A DNA stretch of 8,290 nt from a bacterium (GCA_024278345.1 JAJRTK010000309.1:1-8290), one strand, 5' to 3'. Positions 1 through 8,290 are shown, counted from the stretch's first letter. The notes: generated from the letters alone by a model not told the origin. Program-made: numbers and translations.

Positions 1-1
1 A

Positions 2-122
2 GCGCGCAGCGCACAAAGATGTGGGTCCAGGGAGCTGGCTCCCTGGCGTGGGTCTGGGAGCGGCGCTCCCAGCGGAGGTCCGGAGGCAGAGCCTCCGCCG
101 GGTTCCAGGGCTGGAAGCCCCG
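2..122 (+). repeat. Tandem-hairpin array 1, rightward
   Basis: Five short perfect palindromes in a row: GCGC/GCGC (2-12), CCAGGGAG/CTCCCTGG with loop CTGG (27-46), CTGGGAGC/GCTCCCAG (54-72), CGGAGGC/GCCTCCG (81-97) and GGGCT/AGCCC (108-120). They are separated by GGGT- or GGT-containing spacers. The left end may continue outside the window. The core at 21-46 recurs in reverse orientation at 518-543 with one mismatch in 26 bases. Such arrays of GC-rich hairpins occur as dispersed elements in several proteobacterial genomes, as far as I recall; their function is unknown to me. Confidence 0.75.
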
Positions 123-470
123 GGGCGGCGTCTGAAATCTGAACCGTGGCCGGTACCATGACCGAGGTCCGCTTTTTTTTCTCCAGACCTCAAAGTCTGC
201 GTTGAAGTGGAGACACTCTTCTATGGGTGGGGTCCGCTCGCGGCGGCGGCAATCCGTCCGCCGCCACTCTGCAATTCTCCCCCCTTTTCTCATCGGTTGC
301 CAGGAAACCGGAGCACTACCGGAATGCTGGCATTATCCCGGATATCTCACCATGGATCGTGACGAGGCAGGCTGAGGCACGGCCAATCGTCCGGGCAACG
401 CCTCGCTGGCGCTCGGCGGGTCACGTTTGCGTGACTCGAAGGGTCACTCCTCGCGTTACTCGGCGGTCGT
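123..470. other. Non-coding stretch between the two hairpin arrays
   Basis: No convincing gene. It holds repeat copy A (215-269), a run of eight T (173-180) flanked by GAGGTC (164-169) and GACCTC (186-191), and a GTCACG/CGTGAC hairpin (420-435) followed by GTCAC-like direct repeats (419-461). The T run follows only a weak bulged stem (152-170), so it is at best a poor rightward terminator. Open frames here have no recognisable protein features. Confidence 0.5.
215..269 (+). repeat. Palindromic repeat, copy A (short version lacking the inner hairpin)
   Basis: Contains TCCGCTCGCGGCGG (233-246) and TCCGTCCGCCGCCACTC (253-269), both identical to blocks in copy B, but separated by only 6 bases instead of 30. 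The upstream stretch TTCTATGGGTGGGG resembles the TTCATTTGGGTTGCG that precedes copy B. The GGCGGCGG and CCGCCGCC arms can pair. It lies in non-coding DNA. Confidence 0.7.
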
Positions 471-563
471 CCGGGGATTCCTTCCCCGGTCCCTGGCAGG
501 GCTTTGCCCTGCACCCACCAGGGAGCGAGCTCCCTGGACCCACGTGGATGGACGCTGCGCGTC
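471..563 (-). repeat. Tandem-hairpin array 2, leftward (inverted partner of array 1)
   Basis: On the minus strand, in order: GACGC/GCGTC (563-551), a 7-base spacer, GTGGGT, CCAGGGAGC/GCTCCCTGG (537-518), GCAGGGC/GCCCTGC (512-496) and CCGGGGA/TCCCCGG (489-471). The order small GCGC-type hairpin, short spacer, GTGGGTCCAGGGAGC core is the same as in array 1, so the two arrays face each other across about 350 bases. Confidence 0.75.
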
Positions 564-614
564 TTTTCTTTCATTCTTCTGGGGTGGTCCGATGGATCTC
601 GTACCTTCGAGATC
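563..614 (+). repeat. Possible fourth, diverged copy (D) of the palindromic repeat
   Basis: CTTTTCTTTCATTCTTC (563-579) resembles the leaders of copies B and C. It is followed by GGGGTGGTCCG, as in copy A, and then by a perfect 7-bp hairpin GATCTCG/CGAGATC (595-601 and 608-614). The palindrome itself is different in sequence, so membership is tentative. It abuts the outer end of the hairpin array at 471-563. Confidence 0.4.
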
Positions 615-617
615 ACC

Positions 618-735
618 GTGAGAATTGCCGATGGTGTTGTCCAGGAACAGACCATCCACGTGAAGTTCGCCGACGGAACCGAAGCCGACATCGATCTGAA
701 GTCCGAGATCTGGGGGGAAGTCTTCAAGCGAGTCA
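618..735 (+). pseudogene. Fragment of a DUF2442-like gene
   Basis: From GTG 618 the plus strand reads VRIADGVVQEQTIHVKFADG, then TEADIDLKSEIWGEVFKRVR. The pattern (short strand, I-x-V-x-F-x-DGTE, then DL and WG-x-VF) resembles the N-terminal half of the small DUF2442 proteins, which usually run to about 75-100 residues. Past about 733 the frame enters the antisense of the psd 3' end and loses any resemblance (stop at 828-830). The fragment is convergent with psd. The expected partner DUF4160 gene is not seen nearby. The match rests on pattern memory, so it is tentative; a chance open frame is the alternative. Confidence 0.35.
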
Positions 736-1569
736 GAGTCGCCCCAGCTTTTGGCCGAAGCGGACGGGATTTCCCGGAGTGGCGCCGTCCAGACTTCCCA
801 GCCCGGGCTGCAGGAGAAGAATCACCGTAGAGCCGAGCTCGAAGCGGCCGATCTCTTCGCCTCTTTTCAAGACGATGGGCTCCGGGAAATAGCGTTCCGC
901 GGCCAGCTTGGTTCCGTCGTGGGTCGTGAGAGGATCGAATTGGAGACGGACCTTGCCCACCACCACGGCCGCGATGAGGACAAGGAGCATGTTTTGGCCT
1001 CGAACCGAGGCGCGCAAGATGATCCTTTCGTTGCCGGTGTAGAGGCCCGGAACTTGCGTCCGGGACCAGTCGTTCACCGGCAAGACGTTGCCCGGAATAT
1101 GGATTGCCTGGTGGATGGCCATGTCGGCTGGCGCGTGGATGCGGTGGTAGTCGGCGGGGGAGAGGTAGAGGTTGACGTAGATGCCGCCATCCCAGCCGCT
1201 GGCCCAGCGGGGGCCTCCCAGAAGTCCTTCCAACGTATAGGTCAGCCCTTTGGCCTGGATCAGGGCGCCGGGATCGAGGTGGCCAGCTTGAGAGACGCGG
1301 CCATCCACGGGGCTGATCCAGGCATCCGGATCACTGGCCATGGGTCTGGCTTCGGGTTTGAGCTCGCGGGTAAAAAAGTCGATGAAAGTGGAGTAGTCTT
1401 CGGGTTCTTCACGGACGGCTTCGGCCATGTCGATCTCGTAGTGGCGGCAGTACCTTCGGATGGCGGCAGCAAGAAAGACTCGGGGCAAGCGCTTGGAGGC
1501 GGCCCAGCCGGCGAAGCGGGTCAAATGGTGGCCAGCGGAGGATTCCAGAATGCGAAGTCCAAGGTCCAA
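733..1569 (-). CDS. psd: Phosphatidylserine decarboxylase proenzyme
   Basis: The protein has 278 residues, close to the usual length of bacterial proenzymes. It decarboxylates phosphatidylserine to phosphatidylethanolamine at the inner membrane using a pyruvoyl group made by self-cleavage. All key sites are visible: FFTREL (from 65), SPVDGR with catalytic Asp 89, YLSPADYHRIHAP with His 142, and FELGST (243-248), where cleavage before Ser 247 yields the pyruvoyl alpha chain. The C-terminus ends naturally in VRFGQKLGRL. The start is a TTG with GGAG 8 bases upstream; the frame is closed by a stop at 1603 and no ATG or GTG lies between, and an ATG at codon 48 would remove conserved sequence. It follows the LolA-like gene on the same strand after 218 bases containing a large hairpin, so it may be a separate unit. 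The role is probably housekeeping, though an amine-lipid link is possible. Confidence 0.95.
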   Translation of the reverse strand: MDLGLRILESSAGHHLTRFAGWAASKRLPRVFLAAAIRRYCRHYEIDMAEAVREEPEDYSTFIDFFTRELKPEARPMASDPDAWISPVDGRVSQAGHLDPGALIQAKGLTYTLEGLLGGPRWASGWDGGIYVNLYLSPADYHRIHAPADMAIHQAIHIPGNVLPVNDWSRTQVPGLYTGNERIILRASVRGQNMLLVLIAAVVVGKVRLQFDPLTTHDGTKLAAERYFPEPIVLKRGEEIGRFELGSTVILLLQPGLGSLDGATPGNPVRFGQKLGRL

Positions 1570-1577
1570 GGGGAGTG

Positions 1578-1581
1578 CTCC
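1578..1581 (-). promoter_or_regulatory. Ribosome binding site supporting the TTG start of psd
   Basis: GGAG with an 8-base spacer before TTG 1569. This is the only usable start codon between the in-frame stop at 1603 and the conserved domain. Confidence 0.5.
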
Positions 1582-1671
1582 GGGAGAAGGGAAACTAGTG
1601 AATCACGAGTTGGCGGCCTTTTGGGGGGCAGGAGGTTTTGGGTTCAGAGCCTGGGAAGGGGGCGATGAGGA

Positions 1672-1733
1672 GCTCCTGCCAGCGGACGGATTGCCGCTGG
1701 CGGGAGCGGAACGGTAAGAATGAAAAAAGAAAG
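1672..1733 (-). repeat. Palindromic repeat, copy C: 14-bp hairpin plus pyrimidine-rich leader
   Basis: Lies between the LolA-like gene and psd. Bases 1672-1685 and 1694-1707 pair over 14 positions with one mismatch, around an 8-base loop. Read on the minus strand, the hairpin is preceded by TTCCGCTC, and that by CTTTCTTTTTTCATT (1719-1733). The same order (leader, TTCCGCTC, palindrome containing TCCGTCCG) recurs at 3724-3807. The loop side shares GGCAATCCGTCCG with copy A at 248-260. No T run follows the hairpin in the direction of transcription, so it is not a textbook terminator; it may still slow or stabilise the transcript between the two genes. The rest of the 218-base gap shows no gene and no clear promoter. 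Confidence 0.7.
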
Positions 1734-1787
1734 ATGTTGGAAACGATTGTGTCCAGGCGGCGTTCCAAGATTCGGTGTTGCCGGGGG

Positions 1788-2606
1788 TCATCTGCCCAGC
1801 CTTCGATAGTCGAAGCGGCTCGGATCGATGCCCTGGTCGAGCTTGCGTTCTTGGTATTCCATGACGGTGCGGCTGTGGCGGATTTCGTTGGTCATGACGT
1901 TTTTGAAAAAACGCCATTTTCCGTCCACTGGGCGCCATTCCGATTGTTCCAAGGTCTTGGTGTGCCGGTCATGGCGGTCGAAGGTTTCGATCTTGAGGAC
2001 CAGGAAACGTTCCGCGTCGATCCAGAGGAGACGTTTGGAATAGCTGGACTGATTCTTCGGCGTGCTTGCCCGGGGTTGCGCCAGGATCACGTAGCAGTCG
2101 ATGCCGTCCAGCGGTTCTTTCCTCTGGAGCTCGTAGTCGTTGCTGTCGAAGTTTTCGGTTCGGAGGTCTTCGTAACTGAAGTCGGTTCCGGCGAAGCTTT
2201 GGGACTTGGAGGTGTCCGCGATACGGCGGCTCCGTTTGAGTTGTGGCAGGTAGACCCAGCGGTCATCGGGGCGTCCTGTATGTTCCAGGGTGAGGAGGCT
2301 TGTTCCCTTCATACTGGCCGGCTCCAGGAAGGTGAGGAGAAACTTGTCGTCCTGTTGGGCCTTCTCTTCATCGCCAGAATCAGTGCGACCGGATTCGAAA
2401 AGAAACTCGAGTTTCATTTTGCGAGGCCTCGATTTGAGGCTCCGGTAGACGTAGACGGTGGCGATGCCGCTTTCGTTTCGGGCTTGGTGGAACTCCTCGG
2501 TCTTTTGGACGATCTGTCTGGCCGTTGGCTGCTCGGCCGTGAATGCGGTTGCGGTGGCAAGGAGAGTAGAAAAGAGGAAGATCCGGAAAACTCGAGGGAT
2601 GAACAT
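1788..2606 (-). CDS. Periplasmic LolA-like 'outer membrane lipoprotein-sorting' protein
   Basis: The protein has 272 residues. The N-terminus (MFIPRVFRIFLFSTLLATATAF) is a Sec signal peptide: basic residues, a hydrophobic core, and an A-T-A cleavage site after about residue 21. The mature part has the marks of the LolA-like family often annotated as outer membrane lipoprotein-sorting protein: WVYLPQLKRSRRIA, the following GTDFSYEDL, a central LLWIDAERFLVLKIE, and the C-terminal DPSRFDYRRLGR. Family members have a LolA/LolB-type half-barrel that binds acyl chains, and are often found beside MMPL/RND exporters. ATG 2606 is 5 bases after the upstream stop; its GGAG lies in the last codons of the upstream gene, so it belongs to the same operon. 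Inferred role: periplasmic handling of a lipid-like product or its carrier. The ligand is not known. There is no lipobox cysteine, so it is not itself a lipoprotein. Confidence 0.82.
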   Translation of the reverse strand: MFIPRVFRIFLFSTLLATATAFTAEQPTARQIVQKTEEFHQARNESGIATVYVYRSLKSRPRKMKLEFLFESGRTDSGDEEKAQQDDKFLLTFLEPASMKGTSLLTLEHTGRPDDRWVYLPQLKRSRRIADTSKSQSFAGTDFSYEDLRTENFDSNDYELQRKEPLDGIDCYVILAQPRASTPKNQSSYSKRLLWIDAERFLVLKIETFDRHDRHTKTLEQSEWRPVDGKWRFFKNVMTNEIRHSRTVMEYQERKLDQGIDPSRFDYRRLGR

Positions 2607-2611
2607 CGTGC

Positions 2612-5497
2612 TCACTCCGTTGGCGAGAGCATGGGGGTGGATGTCGTGCAGACGGTGGTGAATCCATGTTTGGCGGAAAGTCGCTTCATCATTTCCACCT
2701 GCTTGGCCTGGATCGGCCCCACGGCGCAATCATTCTCTAGCTGTTCGAAGCCCAAAAGCAGGGTCTCGGCCATGCAGGCGTAGAGGTGACCCGGAGGCAA
2801 GCGAAGGCCCCGGACCTGAAAATCGGGATTGCCGGGAAGCTGGAGGATACCGCCTCGAAGGATCCGGAGATCAGGGCGCTGGAGGCGGAGGGCGTCGGAC
2901 GTGTCGCCCGGGAGGGCAATGTCGCAGATCAATCGGGTTTTCGGGCTCACGTCTCCTGGTTGGATGAGCGGTTCAGAGCTGCTGGAGGCAGCGACGATGA
3001 GATCGCACTTTCCCAGATCCCGCAGGTCGTCGCTCACTTCGATATGGGTCTTCGGAAAGCGCCTGGAGATGCGGTGCGCCAGTTTTTCAAGGCGTCGGCG
3101 GGCTCGCGGGCGACCGATGAGCAGGAGAGAGGGTACCCTGGCAGCCATCATTTCCCCATAGATGGAGCCGATATTGCCGGTGGCCCCCAGGATGCCCAGG
3201 GTGGCGTCGCCCAGAGGCAGGTCCAATTGGGCGGCGGCTTTCTCAAGTGCCTGCAGCCCCGCGGCCACGGTCATGGCATTTCCGGTGGTGACCGGGATGG
3301 GTGAGGAGCGTAACCGGAGCCCTTGTCCCGTGGCGATGGAGGTGAACCCCCCAAGGCCCAGCAACCTTGCCCCTTTGGCGTGGGCCATAATGACAGCTTC
3401 TTGGATTTGTTCCAGCAGCCAGCCGGAGTCGCCCTGGGCTAGGGCTTTCTCGAACTGCCGCGCCGTCAGAGGAAGAGCCAGGAATAGAAGATCCAGAGTT
3501 TTTCCCGTAGCCGAGACGATGGAGTGCGTTTCGAAAGTAAAGGGTCCCAGATGGCGATGAAACCTGTCAAGAAGGGTCTCCAAATGTGGTGTCGGGCAGT
3601 TGGCCAGGCATGGATCGAAATGGGCCATGTCCGAAGGATCGAGGAAATGCCCAAGAAAAGCTACGCGGTTTCGGTTCTTTGTGGGATGGTGGGAGGCCTG
3701 AAGGGCAAGGTTCTGGCAAGCCCCTTTCTTTTCATTTGGGTTGCGTTCCGCTCGCGGCGGTCTGACCCACGCCCGCGGCGTGAGTTCCCCTCCGTCCGCC
3801 GCCACTCGCATCTCATCACCCCTGGCCTGCTCTCGATGCCCGCGAGGCGTCTCAGGACCCTCTTTTGGGGGGAGGGCCGACCCCGGGCTCGCTAGAGAAG
3901 GTTGGTCGGTATTGAGCGCGGCTCTGCCGGGGTCCAGTCGGCCTGGCAGCGCACGGCACAGGTGAGCTGTGAGGCCATAGACGCGGCCCTCGTTTAGAAG
4001 CCGGAAGACGCGGTCCAAAGCATTGATGAAGCGGTTGACGTCCGATTCTTGGAGGAGAGCCGAGGGCTGGATTCGGAGGGTGTTGGGACTGGAGAGCGTT
4101 GGCAGAACGCGGATATTCTCTTGATGCAGTAAGGTGCTGGCCAGCAGATAGCCAAGAAGACCCCGTTCCCACAGAAGCTTGAGGGTCCCCGAAGGCGATC
4201 TGTCTTGGGATTCCAGATCGAAGCCCAGGAGGAGGCCACGCCCGCGTACGTCGCCAACGACAGCAGGCCAGCGCTTTTTTAGATCTTCCATCTTGGTTCG
4301 GAGAGTGGTTCCCAACGTTTTGGCTTGGCCAAGCAATGCTCCTTTTTTTTCGTGGAGCATTTCCAGGGCTTCCAGGGCCACAAGGCAGGAAGCGTCGTCT
4401 TCGGCGAAGGTCGAGGTTTGGCACTTTCCGAAATCCTGCAGGTAGCGTTCCTTCTGGATGGCCAGGGCCGCGATTTTCACCAGGCCGCCGCCCAAACTTT
4501 TGGAGAGGACGATGTAATCTCCAGTGACTCCCAGGTGTGTGGAGGCTAGAAAGCTCCCGGTCCGGCCGAAGCCGGATTGGATCTCGTCCAGGATGAGCGG
4601 GCATCCGGCCTTCTGGGCGGCGCTTCTGAGATCCGCCAGAAACCCCGGATCTTGTTCGTGGACGCCGCCTTCGCCCTGGATCGGTTCTACAAAGATGCCC
4701 GCGATCTTGCTCAGCCGCTTTTCTACAAGGTTTGTCCCGCCTTGAGGAAGGAACTGAACATCCATGAGCGAAAGAGTCTGGCCGTCAAGGAGATCCCGGA
4801 GCTCCGTGGGGTTGCCGGGATCGACGAATTGGACCGTGGGACCCAAATGGCTAAGCTCGGGGCGGTTCAAGGAGGAAAAGGTAAGGGCGCCCGCACCGGT
4901 GGTTTTCCCGTGGAAACTGCCTTTGACAGCCAAGAAGAGTGGAGGGCGAAAGGGCAGCTCCCACTGGTTTCTTGTCAGTGTTTTGAGCCGGCGGCTTTCG
5001 GGCGTGTCTCCAAGGGATTTGGCAAGTTTGAGAAGGCGCGAATTGGCGGTCGTGACCCTTTGTTCCAGGCGGGTGTGGTGTTCCATGGCCGCGTGTCTGA
5101 GCGCGGCCTCAATCGATTCGGCGCCAGTATTGAGCAAGGTGACGATCCACTGGCGCCCCGTGGAGTCGGCCAGGTGTCCGGCGAGTTTTCGGCAGAGCTT
5201 CCCGGCCGGCCCCCTCACGCTTCCCTGGGCATTGAAGGGCACGGAATCCCCCAGTGCCTGGATCAGACGTTTCACTAGGCGGGGATGGTTGTGCCCGAAC
5301 AGCCCGGCTCCAAAGCCTCCCACCATGTCCAGAGTGGCGATTTCGGCGCCGTCAGCAGTGGCCCGGTACAGGTGATCCCCCCGTGCCCGATGGTAGACGA
5401 CGTCGAGGTCCAGGGCTCCTTGGAGCAGAACGAGGGCGGGCCGCGAGAAGTCGCGGTAATCTGCCACGGCCTCACTGGCTGGAATCGCCCGGTTCAT
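2612..5497 (-). CDS. Class III PLP aminotransferase fused to long-chain acyl-ACP reductase (AAR-like); putative fatty aldehyde/amine-forming enzyme
   Basis: One open frame of 961 residues. Residues 20-505 are a fold-type I class III aminotransferase: NTGAESIEAALRHA (from 123), GSFHGKT (from 193), DEIQSGFGRTG (from 304) and LSKSLGGG with the PLP lysine at 333. Residues 515-608 form a Pro/Arg-rich, low-complexity linker. Residues 610-961 match cyanobacterial acyl-ACP reductase over its full length: FLGHF near the start, GLGGFTS (from 714), the NADPH-binding GATGNIGS (771-778), ILRGGI (from 879) and YACMAE with the expected catalytic Cys at 908. Inferred reaction: acyl thioester to aldehyde, then transamination to a primary amine. 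ATG 5497 overlaps the upstream stop as ATGA and has GGAGGA just upstream; the longer frame back to 5803 only runs inside the upstream gene. Two adjacent genes without a stop between them are a possible alternative (internal ATG 3811). Confidence 0.88.
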   Translation of the reverse strand: MNRAIPASEAVADYRDFSRPALVLLQGALDLDVVYHRARGDHLYRATADGAEIATLDMVGGFGAGLFGHNHPRLVKRLIQALGDSVPFNAQGSVRGPAGKLCRKLAGHLADSTGRQWIVTLLNTGAESIEAALRHAAMEHHTRLEQRVTTANSRLLKLAKSLGDTPESRRLKTLTRNQWELPFRPPLFLAVKGSFHGKTTGAGALTFSSLNRPELSHLGPTVQFVDPGNPTELRDLLDGQTLSLMDVQFLPQGGTNLVEKRLSKIAGIFVEPIQGEGGVHEQDPGFLADLRSAAQKAGCPLILDEIQSGFGRTGSFLASTHLGVTGDYIVLSKSLGGGLVKIAALAIQKERYLQDFGKCQTSTFAEDDASCLVALEALEMLHEKKGALLGQAKTLGTTLRTKMEDLKKRWPAVVGDVRGRGLLLGFDLESQDRSPSGTLKLLWERGLLGYLLASTLLHQENIRVLPTLSSPNTLRIQPSALLQESDVNRFINALDRVFRLLNEGRVYGLTAHLCRALPGRLDPGRAALNTDQPSLASPGSALPPKEGPETPRGHREQARGDEMRVAADGGELTPRAWVRPPRAERNPNEKKGACQNLALQASHHPTKNRNRVAFLGHFLDPSDMAHFDPCLANCPTPHLETLLDRFHRHLGPFTFETHSIVSATGKTLDLLFLALPLTARQFEKALAQGDSGWLLEQIQEAVIMAHAKGARLLGLGGFTSIATGQGLRLRSSPIPVTTGNAMTVAAGLQALEKAAAQLDLPLGDATLGILGATGNIGSIYGEMMAARVPSLLLIGRPRARRRLEKLAHRISRRFPKTHIEVSDDLRDLGKCDLIVAASSSSEPLIQPGDVSPKTRLICDIALPGDTSDALRLQRPDLRILRGGILQLPGNPDFQVRGLRLPPGHLYACMAETLLLGFEQLENDCAVGPIQAKQVEMMKRLSAKHGFTTVCTTSTPMLSPTE
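2615..2618 (-). promoter_or_regulatory. Ribosome binding site fixing the start of the LolA-like gene
   Basis: GGAG sits just before the TGA of the aminotransferase-reductase gene, 8 bases upstream of ATG 2606. It selects the start that begins directly with the signal peptide, instead of an in-frame start 123 bases earlier that would bury the signal sequence. Confidence 0.6.
3724..3807 (+). repeat. Palindromic repeat, copy B, located in frame inside the aminotransferase-reductase gene
   Basis: On the plus strand: CTTTCTTTTCATT (3724-3736), then TCCGCTCGCGGCGG (3747-3760), an inner hairpin (CACGCC/GGCGTG around CGC, 3768-3782, extendable with a wobble pair), then TCCGTCCGCCGCCACTC (3791-3807). 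The 14-base and 17-base blocks are identical to those at 233-246 and 253-269. The outer arms GCGGCGG and CCGCCGC enclose the inner hairpin, giving a two-tier stem. Translated on the minus strand it provides about residues 564-592 of the fusion protein, part of the linker, without breaking the frame. Confidence 0.7.
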
Positions 5498-8154
5498 TCT
5501 TCCTCCGCCAGGATTTCCACAAGACCCCGGTCTCCATCTACGATGATCATCGCGCCGTCGGGAATCTTCTCGGTGGCCCCCGGCACGGCCAGCACCGCTG
5601 GAAGTCCGTACTCCCTGGAGATGACAGCCGCGTGGCTCAAGAGCCCGCCGGTTTCCGTGACCACGGCTCCAACGCGCCCTAGAAGCGGCGTCCAGCCTGG
5701 ATCGGTGAAAAGGGTGATCAGGGCGTCGCCACCGTTGACCCGGTTGCTTTCGTCCAGGCTCCGGATGACACGAGCGGTGGCACGGACTCGGCCGGGGCTG
5801 CAAGCGACGCCCTGGAGTACTTCATGTTCCCCACTTGTCTGGGGAGGTCTCGTGGCTTTTCGGCGCCACTGGTAGCGGTCGCCGATTTCGTTGGGGTTTT
5901 TGAAGTTTCTCCATGCGCGGCAATAGCGGCGGTTCTTGACGACGAGCGCCCTGGCTTTCGAGGCGTCCAAGCGCCCGGCCAGGAGGTCCAGCGCTTCCTG
6001 GTGGCGGAGGAAAAAGAGATCATCAGCTTGGTCCAGGACGCCCTTTGCCCGGACTCTTCGCCCCACTTCCACCGTGTAGCGGCGCACCAGGTCGTAGGCT
6101 CGTGTGGAAAGGTCACGCATCTCTTCCCGCCACCAGCAGAACTTCCGGACGCGCTGGAGCCCGGCAAGAAAGCGCGTGACCCGTCCGGGAACCCAGCGCC
6201 ATCCCGGTTGCTGCCGAAGAAATGTTTCCAGCTTGGTTCGTTCTTCCAGGTAACGCCGGTGTTGTGCCTCGTTGAGGACTCGGGGATCCCGCTTCGGATC
6301 GAATTCGAGAACCAGCTTTTGGAGCGTTGAGTAGACTTCTCTCGGCTGTTCTCTCCACCTTGGCCGCAGAATGTCCAACTCCCGTGTTCCGTGGTAGCCA
6401 TAGGTTAGAAGAAACTGTTCCAAGCGGTCGCTTTCGGGAAGTCCTTCTAGAAGGCTAGGGAGATCCACGGGGTCCGCCTTTGCGACGGCCTGCTTGAGCA
6501 GCGGTCGTTTCTCAATGGAGGCGGCCAGATCCCAGAGAGCTGTTACCGGCCGGAGATGACTCAGATTCCGGAGGCCCAGCATCAGGTTTAGCCAACTGAA
6601 TTCTCCGTTGGCCATCCGGTTCACGCTATCAAAACTCTCCTTGAAGACCAGCTTCGCGTTGGAGGTATTGTAGATTGTCCGAAAATAGGCCGACTCCGTT
6701 TCCACGTAGAGGCCGTTGAGCAGCCTGTCATAAAGTACCGCCAGCTCCCCATCGGTGAGCCGAGCCAGGTGCGGCCGCTGGAAAAGGGCCGCATCGTGCC
6801 AGAATTCCTGGTGAAACCGGCGAATCCAGCTCATGCATTTCCGGAACCCCCCGTAAAGTGCCAGAAGTGAGGGGAGCGCCTTGAGTGCTCCAGTCACCGT
6901 CATGGGAACCGTCAGGCCGTCTCCTTCGTAGGTGATCTCAATGCTCAGATCCGAGTCGAATTCCCTTTCATTGAAGCCGGGCGCGTTGGCCAGGCATCGC
7001 TTCACGGCGCCCACGTTCCAGTAGGGGCGCCCGAAGAAGACGCGGCCCCACTCTAGATCGCTCTTTAGCTCGTCCGGCAAGAGCCGGATCTCATGGACGT
7101 ACGCCGGCAATGTCCCATGCCAGATTCGATCATACAGGGACCACATGAAGGGCGACACGACGCTGGAGCTCACGCCGCCGTCACGGAAATCGGCCGTTGT
7201 CCATTCACCGAGTCCCGGCGCGTAGCCAATTCTTGTGATAGGCCGAGTCTGAAGCGCCCATAGATGGCCGTCCAGGTCGAAGGACCACTCCACATCTTGC
7301 GGCGCTCCCAGGAGCGCGTGAAGGTCTCTGCCCATCTGGCCAAGCTCTTGAAGCTCGCCAGAGGAGAGGATCTCGTCCCCCTGCCCCATTTTTTCCTTCA
7401 GTTTTCCCGAATGCCACTCCAGGACATAGCGGGAGGGATTCACCCGGCCCGAGACCAGGGCTTCGCCCAAGCCCGGGACCGCCTCCGCCAGCATCTCATC
7501 GTCCCGCCCTGTTTGGGGGTGGAGCGTGAACAACACGCCGGACACCCGTGGCTGGACCATTTGCTGGAGAATGACCGCCATGGAGAGCTGCTTTAGCGGT
7601 AGCCCGTTCCGCTGGCAGTAGCCGAGCACCCGATTGTTCCAGGCGCTGACCCAGCAGCGGCGCACTGAATCGACGACCGCTTCCAGATCCGTGACCTCCA
7701 GAAACGTTTCGTATTGCCCGGCAAAGCTCGCCTCTTCCAGATCCTCCATGGTTCCTGATGATCGGACGGCCACCGGTACGCCGCCAAGCTTACACCAGGC
7801 CAATTCCAGGGCCTCCAACACGAGCCTTGGCAGATCCCCCGTCAGCATGATTTCCCGTAGCTCCTCCAACTCTCCTTCCTCTTCCTGGCTATTTTGGACG
7901 CGCTTCAGCAGTTCCTTGCCCTTCCGGGGAAGATTCTCCAGGAACTCTTCATAGGCGGCGGTGGAAAGGCAGAAGGCGCGAGGCACATGGAAACCCTCTC
8001 GCGTCAAAAGAGCCAGTCCGGCGGCTTTGCTTCCTATCTCGCCCCGCCGGGCTTCGGCTGCCTTGCTACCCAGATCGATGAGCCACTCTTCGCCGGGCCT
8101 ATTTTCCGGCCCTTGAGCATCTTCTTGATTCGTTCCACTTTTGTCGGCTGCCAT
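5494..8154 (-). CDS. ATP-grasp/phosphohistidine enzyme of the rifampicin phosphotransferase / PigC-TamQ ligase type
   Basis: The protein has 886 residues. The N-terminal PPDK_N-type ATP-binding domain (about 40-310) shows GSKAAGLALL, VAVRSSGTMEDLEEASFAGQ (from 129), PGLGEALVSG (from 228) and LQTRPIT (from 301). A central region (about 310-780) includes LDILRPRW, a segment also found in RPH and PigC-like proteins. The C-terminal swivelling phosphohistidine domain (782-880) has TETGGLLSHAAVISREYG with the phospho-acceptor His at 841. No PEP/pyruvate TIM barrel follows, so it is not a true PEP synthase. Length and domain order match rifampicin phosphotransferase and the pyrrole/amine condensing enzymes PigC and TamQ. 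Its gene neighbours favour the condensing role, but this is inferred. I chose ATG 8154 because GAGGA lies 9 bases upstream; TTG 8217 would add 21 residues and overlap the preceding stop. The stop overlaps the next ATG. Confidence 0.88.
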   Translation of the reverse strand: MAADKSGTNQEDAQGPENRPGEEWLIDLGSKAAEARRGEIGSKAAGLALLTREGFHVPRAFCLSTAAYEEFLENLPRKGKELLKRVQNSQEEEGELEELREIMLTGDLPRLVLEALELAWCKLGGVPVAVRSSGTMEDLEEASFAGQYETFLEVTDLEAVVDSVRRCWVSAWNNRVLGYCQRNGLPLKQLSMAVILQQMVQPRVSGVLFTLHPQTGRDDEMLAEAVPGLGEALVSGRVNPSRYVLEWHSGKLKEKMGQGDEILSSGELQELGQMGRDLHALLGAPQDVEWSFDLDGHLWALQTRPITRIGYAPGLGEWTTADFRDGGVSSSVVSPFMWSLYDRIWHGTLPAYVHEIRLLPDELKSDLEWGRVFFGRPYWNVGAVKRCLANAPGFNEREFDSDLSIEITYEGDGLTVPMTVTGALKALPSLLALYGGFRKCMSWIRRFHQEFWHDAALFQRPHLARLTDGELAVLYDRLLNGLYVETESAYFRTIYNTSNAKLVFKESFDSVNRMANGEFSWLNLMLGLRNLSHLRPVTALWDLAASIEKRPLLKQAVAKADPVDLPSLLEGLPESDRLEQFLLTYGYHGTRELDILRPRWREQPREVYSTLQKLVLEFDPKRDPRVLNEAQHRRYLEERTKLETFLRQQPGWRWVPGRVTRFLAGLQRVRKFCWWREEMRDLSTRAYDLVRRYTVEVGRRVRAKGVLDQADDLFFLRHQEALDLLAGRLDASKARALVVKNRRYCRAWRNFKNPNEIGDRYQWRRKATRPPQTSGEHEVLQGVACSPGRVRATARVIRSLDESNRVNGGDALITLFTDPGWTPLLGRVGAVVTETGGLLSHAAVISREYGLPAVLAVPGATEKIPDGAMIIVDGDRGLVEILAEEE
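5501..5506 (-). promoter_or_regulatory. Ribosome binding site for the aminotransferase-reductase gene, within a translationally coupled junction
   Basis: GGAGGA lies 3 bases before ATG 5497, inside the last codons of the upstream gene, whose TGA shares bases with the ATG (ATGA). The overlap implies translational coupling and roughly matched expression of the ligase/phosphotransferase-like enzyme and the aminotransferase-reductase. Confidence 0.6.
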
Positions 8155-8163
8155 TTCCCCTTG

Positions 8164-8168
8164 TCCTC
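8164..8168 (-). promoter_or_regulatory. Ribosome binding site deciding the start of the RPH/PigC-like gene
   Basis: GAGGA on the minus strand, 9 bases before ATG 8154. The alternative in-frame TTG at 8217 has only a G run directly against it, so this site supports the shorter 886-residue protein. A second purine tract (AAGGGGAA) touches the ATG and is too close to be the main site. Confidence 0.5.
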
Positions 8169-8213
8169 GTGGTTCACGCGATTGCCCGGCCAGAAATCGT
8201 TCGCCCCCGGGGC

Positions 8214-8290
8214 TCAATCCCCCGTTTGGGCCAAGTAGATAGCTTTGGCACGATGTCGCCGGATCTTGCCGCTAGAGGTTTTGGGCATCG
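8214..8290 (-). CDS. C-terminal end of an acyl-AMP-forming ligase (acyl-CoA/acyl-ACP synthetase or FAAL type), partial
   Basis: Only the last 24 codons and the TGA stop are in the window; the rest lies beyond the right edge. The tail begins MPKTSSGKIRR and ends AQTGD. PKTSSGK followed by basic residues is the A10 motif of the adenylate-forming superfamily; its lysine contacts the adenylate in the first half-reaction. Known family members of this kind load fatty or aryl acids onto CoA or acyl carrier protein, or make free acyl-AMP. Its position as first visible gene of an operon with an acyl-thioester reductase suggests that it supplies the acyl substrate. The substrate, and whether it is a CoA ligase, an acyl-ACP synthetase or an FAAL, cannot be read from so short a tail. 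The TGA overlaps a possible TTG start of the next gene, but I place that start 60 bases downstream. Confidence 0.8.
   Translation of the reverse strand, partial: MPKTSSGKIRRHRAKAIYLAQTGD

Follow-up and report, generated by a model that had tools for sequence, protein, structure and literature searches.

The question raised by contig JAJRTK010000309.1 (assembly GCA_024278345.1, positions 1-8290) is what its three consecutive genes make together: the end of a fatty acyl-AMP ligase (FAAL), an 886-residue phosphohistidine enzyme that we call PEPS1, and an aminotransferase–reductase fusion resembling TamH of tambjamine biosynthesis. The window, as we term the whole stretch analysed, is a complete 8290-bp contig (C235) from a 6.06-Mb genome assembly (87.9% complete) of a bacterium known from metagenomes only, whose rare phylum is represented by eight genomes in our comparison set; every recognisable gene of the window lies on the minus strand. 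A preliminary description of this DNA had proposed a tambjamine-like fatty-amine cassette with a PigC/TamQ-type enzyme in the middle, and had named an amine-containing lipid as the fallback. Of the two, the fallback fits best. With about an even chance of being right, we read the locus as a TamA/TamH-type fatty-amine module feeding a route to an amine-derived, phosphorylated membrane lipid, not to a tambjamine, and we see a similarly balanced case for the genes of this pathway being scattered over several loci.

The TamH-like fusion and its acyl supply

The fusion gene (2612..5497, minus strand) encodes an N-terminal class-III aminotransferase (204.5 bits) followed by an acyl-thioester reductase. 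Its best match in NCBIfam is PigE, at 313.6 bits under a cut-off of 850, and its second half by itself matches PigE, the cyanobacterial acyl-acyl carrier protein reductase (AAR) family, and solved structures of both. The pyridoxal-phosphate lysine (K333, at 4501-4499), the catalytic cysteine of the reductase (C908, at 2776-2774) and the nucleotide-binding GxxGxxG are all present, bearing out the preliminary description of an aminotransferase joined to an AAR-like reductase. In the characterised system, PtTamA (adenylation plus acyl carrier protein, ACP) and PtTamH (transaminase–thioester reductase) turn fatty acids into amines (PMC9594044). The window fusion has the same N-to-C order as PtTamH, aminotransferase before reductase, which assigns it to the TamA/TamH-type module, and the catalytic residues are likewise alike. 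PigE of the prodigiosin 2-methyl-3-n-amylpyrrole pathway shares both domains, but in the reversed order, with the reductase first (PMC8341465).

The remaining parts of such a module are an adenylating enzyme and an ACP. The window opens, on the minus strand, with the final 24 codons of a FAAL (MPKTSSGKIRRHRAKAIYLAQTGD-stop, 8288-8214), the remainder lying past the contig end; this tail aligns with the C-termini of Planctomycetota FAALs that adjoin homologous reductases. An ACP gene (PF00550, 49.5 bits), a component that the preliminary description had anticipated, lies elsewhere in the same genome, at the end of contig C330; it overlaps the beginning of a FAAL gene whose product is similar to the FAALs of loci L058 and L181. 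Because Planctomycetota FAALs beside the fusion are also preceded by an ACP gene (directly so in L058, L220 and L221), C330 is the probable missing front of the window operon, with about 1.3 kb of the FAAL absent between the two contigs. The module resembles TamA/TamH of tambjamine YP1 from Pseudoalteromonas tunicata in its transaminase–thioester reductase fusion and, if C330 is indeed its front, in its adenylating enzyme and ACP. It differs in having ACP and FAAL as separate genes, in a genomic repeat within the fusion linker, and in its surroundings, which contain lipid genes and no recognised bipyrrole genes. By analogy with characterised relatives, we consider the amine chemistry quite probable: FAAL, ACP and fusion would most likely yield a long-chain primary amine. 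The fatty-amine module of the preliminary description is accordingly strengthened by the TamH domain order, the characterised TamA/TamH pair, the ACP–FAAL pair on C330, and a linkage that recurs in other genomes (see below).

The linker between the two domains (3671..3985, minus strand, about 105 codons) contains, in frame, a copy of a dispersed genomic repeat (about 110 bp, 3718-3830, no strand assigned) with at least 40 scored copies and 481 first-look candidates in the genome. An artefactual fusion was considered on account of this repeat and ruled out: in Photobacterium, Paraburkholderia, Leisingera and many Planctomycetota there are collinear aminotransferase–reductase fusions that lack the repeat, and the window fusion is therefore real. 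The repeat probably entered a pre-existing linker and kept the reading frame open. The gene stands as first described, with the correction that this part of its linker belongs to a repeat family. Weaker stretches related to the repeat occur at 225-266 and 1677-1710.

None of the seven other genomes searched from the same phylum has the fusion; they contain generic aminotransferases only. Variants of the arrangement were seen elsewhere. Three Planctomycetota loci (L229, L230 and L231) carry a second, divergent fusion type adjoining a diacylglycerol-kinase-like gene, accompanied in L230 by an FAD monooxygenase-like gene; an Anaerolineae locus (L059 706-5376) encodes FAAL, aminotransferase and reductase in a single 1556-aa protein; a Gemmatimonadota locus (L057 935-11470) places two B12-binding radical SAM genes with MMPL and TamH-like fusion genes; and gammaproteobacterial loci (L050 2729-16358, L066 and L093) combine genes for a ketosynthase, a TamH-like fusion, a FabG-type short-chain dehydrogenase/reductase, and LolA-like and MMPL proteins.

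PEPS1 among the phosphohistidine enzymes

PEPS1 (5494..8154, minus strand) has the architecture of the rifampicin phosphotransferases (RPH): an ATP-grasp domain (PPDK_N, 222.9 bits), a non-barrel substrate domain and a swivel domain (PEP-utilizers, 72.8 bits). The swivel domain sits at the C-terminus, carries GGxxSHAAxxxRE, and includes the phosphohistidine His841 (codon at 5634-5632), so that domain and profile matches uphold the preliminary account of an 886-residue ATP-grasp/phosphohistidine enzyme. PPDK_N and PEP-utilizers were the only domains found in the protein, and a TIM-barrel phosphoenolpyruvate (PEP)/pyruvate domain was not among them. True PEP synthases match PEPS1 in the ATP-grasp and swivel parts only, and we rejected a PEP synthase identity for want of the C-terminal TIM barrel. 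Among solved structures, profile matches to RPH best cover the ATP-grasp region and the C-terminal part.

The NCBIfam matches all fall well short: a PEP synthase-type profile scores 394 bits, far under its cut-off, followed by RPH at 345.2 bits (cut-off 999), RedH at 332.5 (1350) and PigC at 325.7 (1300). In a 27-row tree that left out TamQ and HpeHI, the PEPS1 proteins formed a 12-row clade of their own with 100/100 support, and separate clades were likewise formed by PigC, by RPH and by PEPS2, which is a second type. The middle (substrate) domain of PEPS1 is 38-45% identical to that of its orthologs and 14-21% to that of PigC or RPH (17-21% for PigC alone); it lacks the RPH motifs, and the PigC motifs MDTGEIVTGLM-P and NISxSxxxLxQCPPTRD are absent from the protein. 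By sequence membership, then, PEPS1 is neither PigC-type nor a rifampicin phosphotransferase, in a comparison that left TamQ aside. The preliminary PigC/TamQ assignment fails on these grounds as regards PigC, and the enzyme also falls outside the antibiotic phosphotransferases, the placement that the same description had held up as its counter-case. An AlphaFold model built from a two-row alignment reached a mean pLDDT (predicted local distance difference test) of 34.5 and was not used.

Linkage to lipid genes and the proposed route

PEPS1 orthologs (about 41-47% identity) were recovered from 13 of 392 Planctomycetota genomes, and the fusion, counted as present above 250 bits, also from 13, with both together in 11 (Fisher p = 8e-18, kinship ignored); Planctomycetota loci were also among the best matches in a reductase scan of named genomes. 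PEPS1 and the fusion share one locus in G011, G052, G322, G175 and the window, and lie on different contigs in the remaining genomes with both. FAAL, fusion and PEPS1 occur together in G011 (L058) and G052 (L181), and the fusion adjoins PEPS1 in G322 (L180) and G175 (L188); the linkage noted in the preliminary description is thus a recurrent one. At L058, FAAL, fusion and PEPS2 are consecutive, PEPS1 and a phosphatidylserine decarboxylase (PSD) gene lie alongside on the opposite strand, and MMPL, DUF3419 and UbiA-like genes are in the vicinity. In the fusion tree, copies from PEPS1 genomes group closely together, with those of L055 (Planctomycetaceae) and G148; the G148 copy stands beside that of G178, and L188 is loosely placed. 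A literature search limited to open-access papers found no account of this gene combination.

The company that PEPS1 keeps is rich in lipid genes. A CarS-like gene stands directly behind it, overlapping or within 5 bp, in G322, G033, G132 and G178, and in G052 a CarS-like gene near PEPS1 is followed by a PssA/archaetidylserine-synthase-like gene. Further neighbours of PEPS1 or the fusion are PSD homologs (G011, G178 and G020), UbiA-like genes (G011, G009 and G033), DUF3419 genes (G011 and G009), a lipid kinase gene (G322 and G175) and MMPL genes (G011, G033 and G178). In the source genome itself, contig C517 bears CarS-like, UbiA-like and MMPL genes side by side, the MMPL gene being another component that the preliminary description had anticipated, and contig C85 carries a PEPS2 ortholog (620 bits to the PEPS2 of G009). 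Since a canonical CdsA is separately present in this genome, the CarS-like enzyme is taken as an extra CDP-lipid synthase. The partner families recurring around PEPS1 are those of CarS and of archaetidylserine synthase and decarboxylase, with the difference that the CarS-like and PssA-like genes are not part of the window and score under the NCBIfam equivalog cut-offs. At another locus, on a Roseinatronobacter plasmid (L146 523-8507), UbiA, PEPS2 and DUF3419 genes are followed by two unknown genes and an AMP-binding gene, a row that is possibly a separate lipid cluster.

Within the window, the three genes lie in the order that the preliminary description gave: 59 bp separate the FAAL stop from the PEPS1 start, and the end of PEPS1 shares 4 bp (ATGA) with the start of the fusion. 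The gene of a LolA-like outer-membrane lipoprotein-sorting protein (PF17131; 1788..2606, minus strand) has its ATG at 2606, 5 bp past the fusion stop. Given these two short gaps and the overlap, FAAL, PEPS1, fusion and LolA-like gene very probably form one operon. In Photobacterium and Leisingera, homologs of the LolA-like gene adjoin MMPL genes and related fusions, and its product is a probable lipid carrier working with an MMPL pump. A further 218 bp beyond lies a PSD gene (733..1569, minus strand; PF02666 186.1 bits, cut-off 22) with the LGST self-cleavage motif; no second copy was found in the recovered genome. We give roughly equal weight to the window being, and not being, the rear of an operon that runs ACP, FAAL, PEPS1, TamH-like fusion and LolA-like gene and is followed by PSD.

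In the route that we propose, the FAAL would load a fatty acid onto the ACP, the reductase domain of the fusion would release the acyl chain as an aldehyde, and the aminotransferase domain would turn this aldehyde into a long-chain amine. With His841 as the relay, PEPS1 would transfer a phosphate from ATP to one of the lipid intermediates of this pathway; the CarS-like enzyme would activate the phospho-lipid to a CDP-lipid, the PssA-like enzyme would add a serine head, and PSD would decarboxylate it to an ethanolamine head. LolA-like and MMPL proteins would carry the product toward the outer membrane. Phosphorylation of a lipid intermediate in the amine pathway is the most likely role for PEPS1, as judged from the domain layout of the enzyme and from its coupling to a CDP-lipid synthase. 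As read from gene company, the kinase step, the head-group steps and the final structure have an even chance at best, and perhaps slightly less.

Work on a pigment pathway characterised the TamA/TamH cascade. The loci described here, from two phyla, link that enzyme logic to a separate phosphohistidine clade and to genes for CDP-lipid synthesis, serine/ethanolamine head groups and lipid export. It is conceivable, if rather doubtful, that these genes specify a bacterial membrane lipid of a new class, derived from a long-chain amine, phosphorylated by PEPS1 as a new family of dikinase without a glycerol-3-phosphate route, and completed by CDP, serine and ethanolamine steps, with LolA-like and MMPL proteins as its exporters; its occurrence across several Planctomycetota and the rare phylum of the source genome is put forward just as tentatively. 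If true, this would identify the genes behind a lipid class not yet described, in bacteria of which little is known, and would add lipid phosphorylation to the functions of this enzyme superfamily, which is known for PEP synthesis, for inactivating rifampicin, for activating phenol and for the condensation that forms prodigiosin.

Other products and the weight of the evidence

PEPS1 could instead be a functional analogue of PigC/TamQ, with ATP activating an aldehyde or carboxyl partner that is joined to the fatty amine. We regard this as unlikely though not negligible, and give the same weight to the tambjamine-like alkaloid or alkyl amide that would result. The PigC/RedH/TamQ ligases share with PEPS1 the superfamily, the ATP-grasp and swivel phosphohistidine domains and the lack of a TIM barrel; the PigC and RedH profiles match it at 326-333 bits, under their cut-offs, and it adjoins a TamH-like fusion much as PigC-type genes neighbour PigE-type fusions in prodiginine clusters. 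However, the clade, motif and substrate-domain differences set out above separate it from PigC, and the CarS-like coupling at orthologous loci points to a phosphorylated lipid. Bipyrrole genes were not recognised in the window, in agreement with the preliminary description; a single PigN-type probe of the 87.9% complete genome was also negative, which is weak evidence given that it had no positive control. Far less probably, PEPS1 would be an RPH/HpeHI-type small-molecule dikinase acting to inactivate some drug or phenol, its amine-gene neighbourhood being incidental. The domain architecture, the proposed phosphohistidine mechanism, the RPH profile and the best solved-structure match of PEPS1 all fit such an enzyme, yet the RPH score is far under its cut-off, the protein lies outside the RPH clade, the genes around it concern lipids instead of drug resistance or aromatic catabolism, and 11 of the 13 PEPS1 genomes also have the fusion.

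The fatty-amine module may also be real while PSD, CarS-like and PssA-like genes are ordinary membrane genes, the product then being a small exported alkylamine or lipoamine. The single PSD of the genome would suit this, as would the gammaproteobacterial fusions, whose neighbours include ketosynthase, LolA-like and MMPL genes and no recognised CarS or PSD; against it speak the separate canonical CdsA and the CarS-like genes that follow PEPS1 immediately in four genomes and lie close to it in one more, and we think it rather unlikely. Least probable is a lipid that anchors proteins of an exosortase (XrtH) sorting system. On contig C517 (L246 6402-12518), XrtH (exosortase H; 91.1 bits, cut-off 86) and a second exosortase-like protein adjoin the CarS-like, UbiA-like and MMPL genes, but XrtH-like proteins, found in 21 of the 392 Planctomycetota genomes, occur in none of the 13 with PEPS1 and none of the 13 with the fusion, a lack of co-occurrence for which we set the idea aside as unsupported.

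Several points also weigh against the amine-derived phospholipid that we favour. The route offers no step by which a fatty amine would enter a phospholipid-like core, and the sequence of PEPS1 does not reveal its substrate. The window itself has no CarS-like or PssA-like gene, its connection to C330 is one that we infer, and its sole PSD may simply serve ordinary phosphatidylethanolamine synthesis. Shared ancestry, moreover, is ignored in the co-occurrence p-value.

Apart from these genes, the window holds a 44-nt inverted repeat (3-46 and 518-561, 84% complementary), whose translation is found again where contig C464 ends (L248 12440-13069); it is probably another dispersed repeat located at contig ends.

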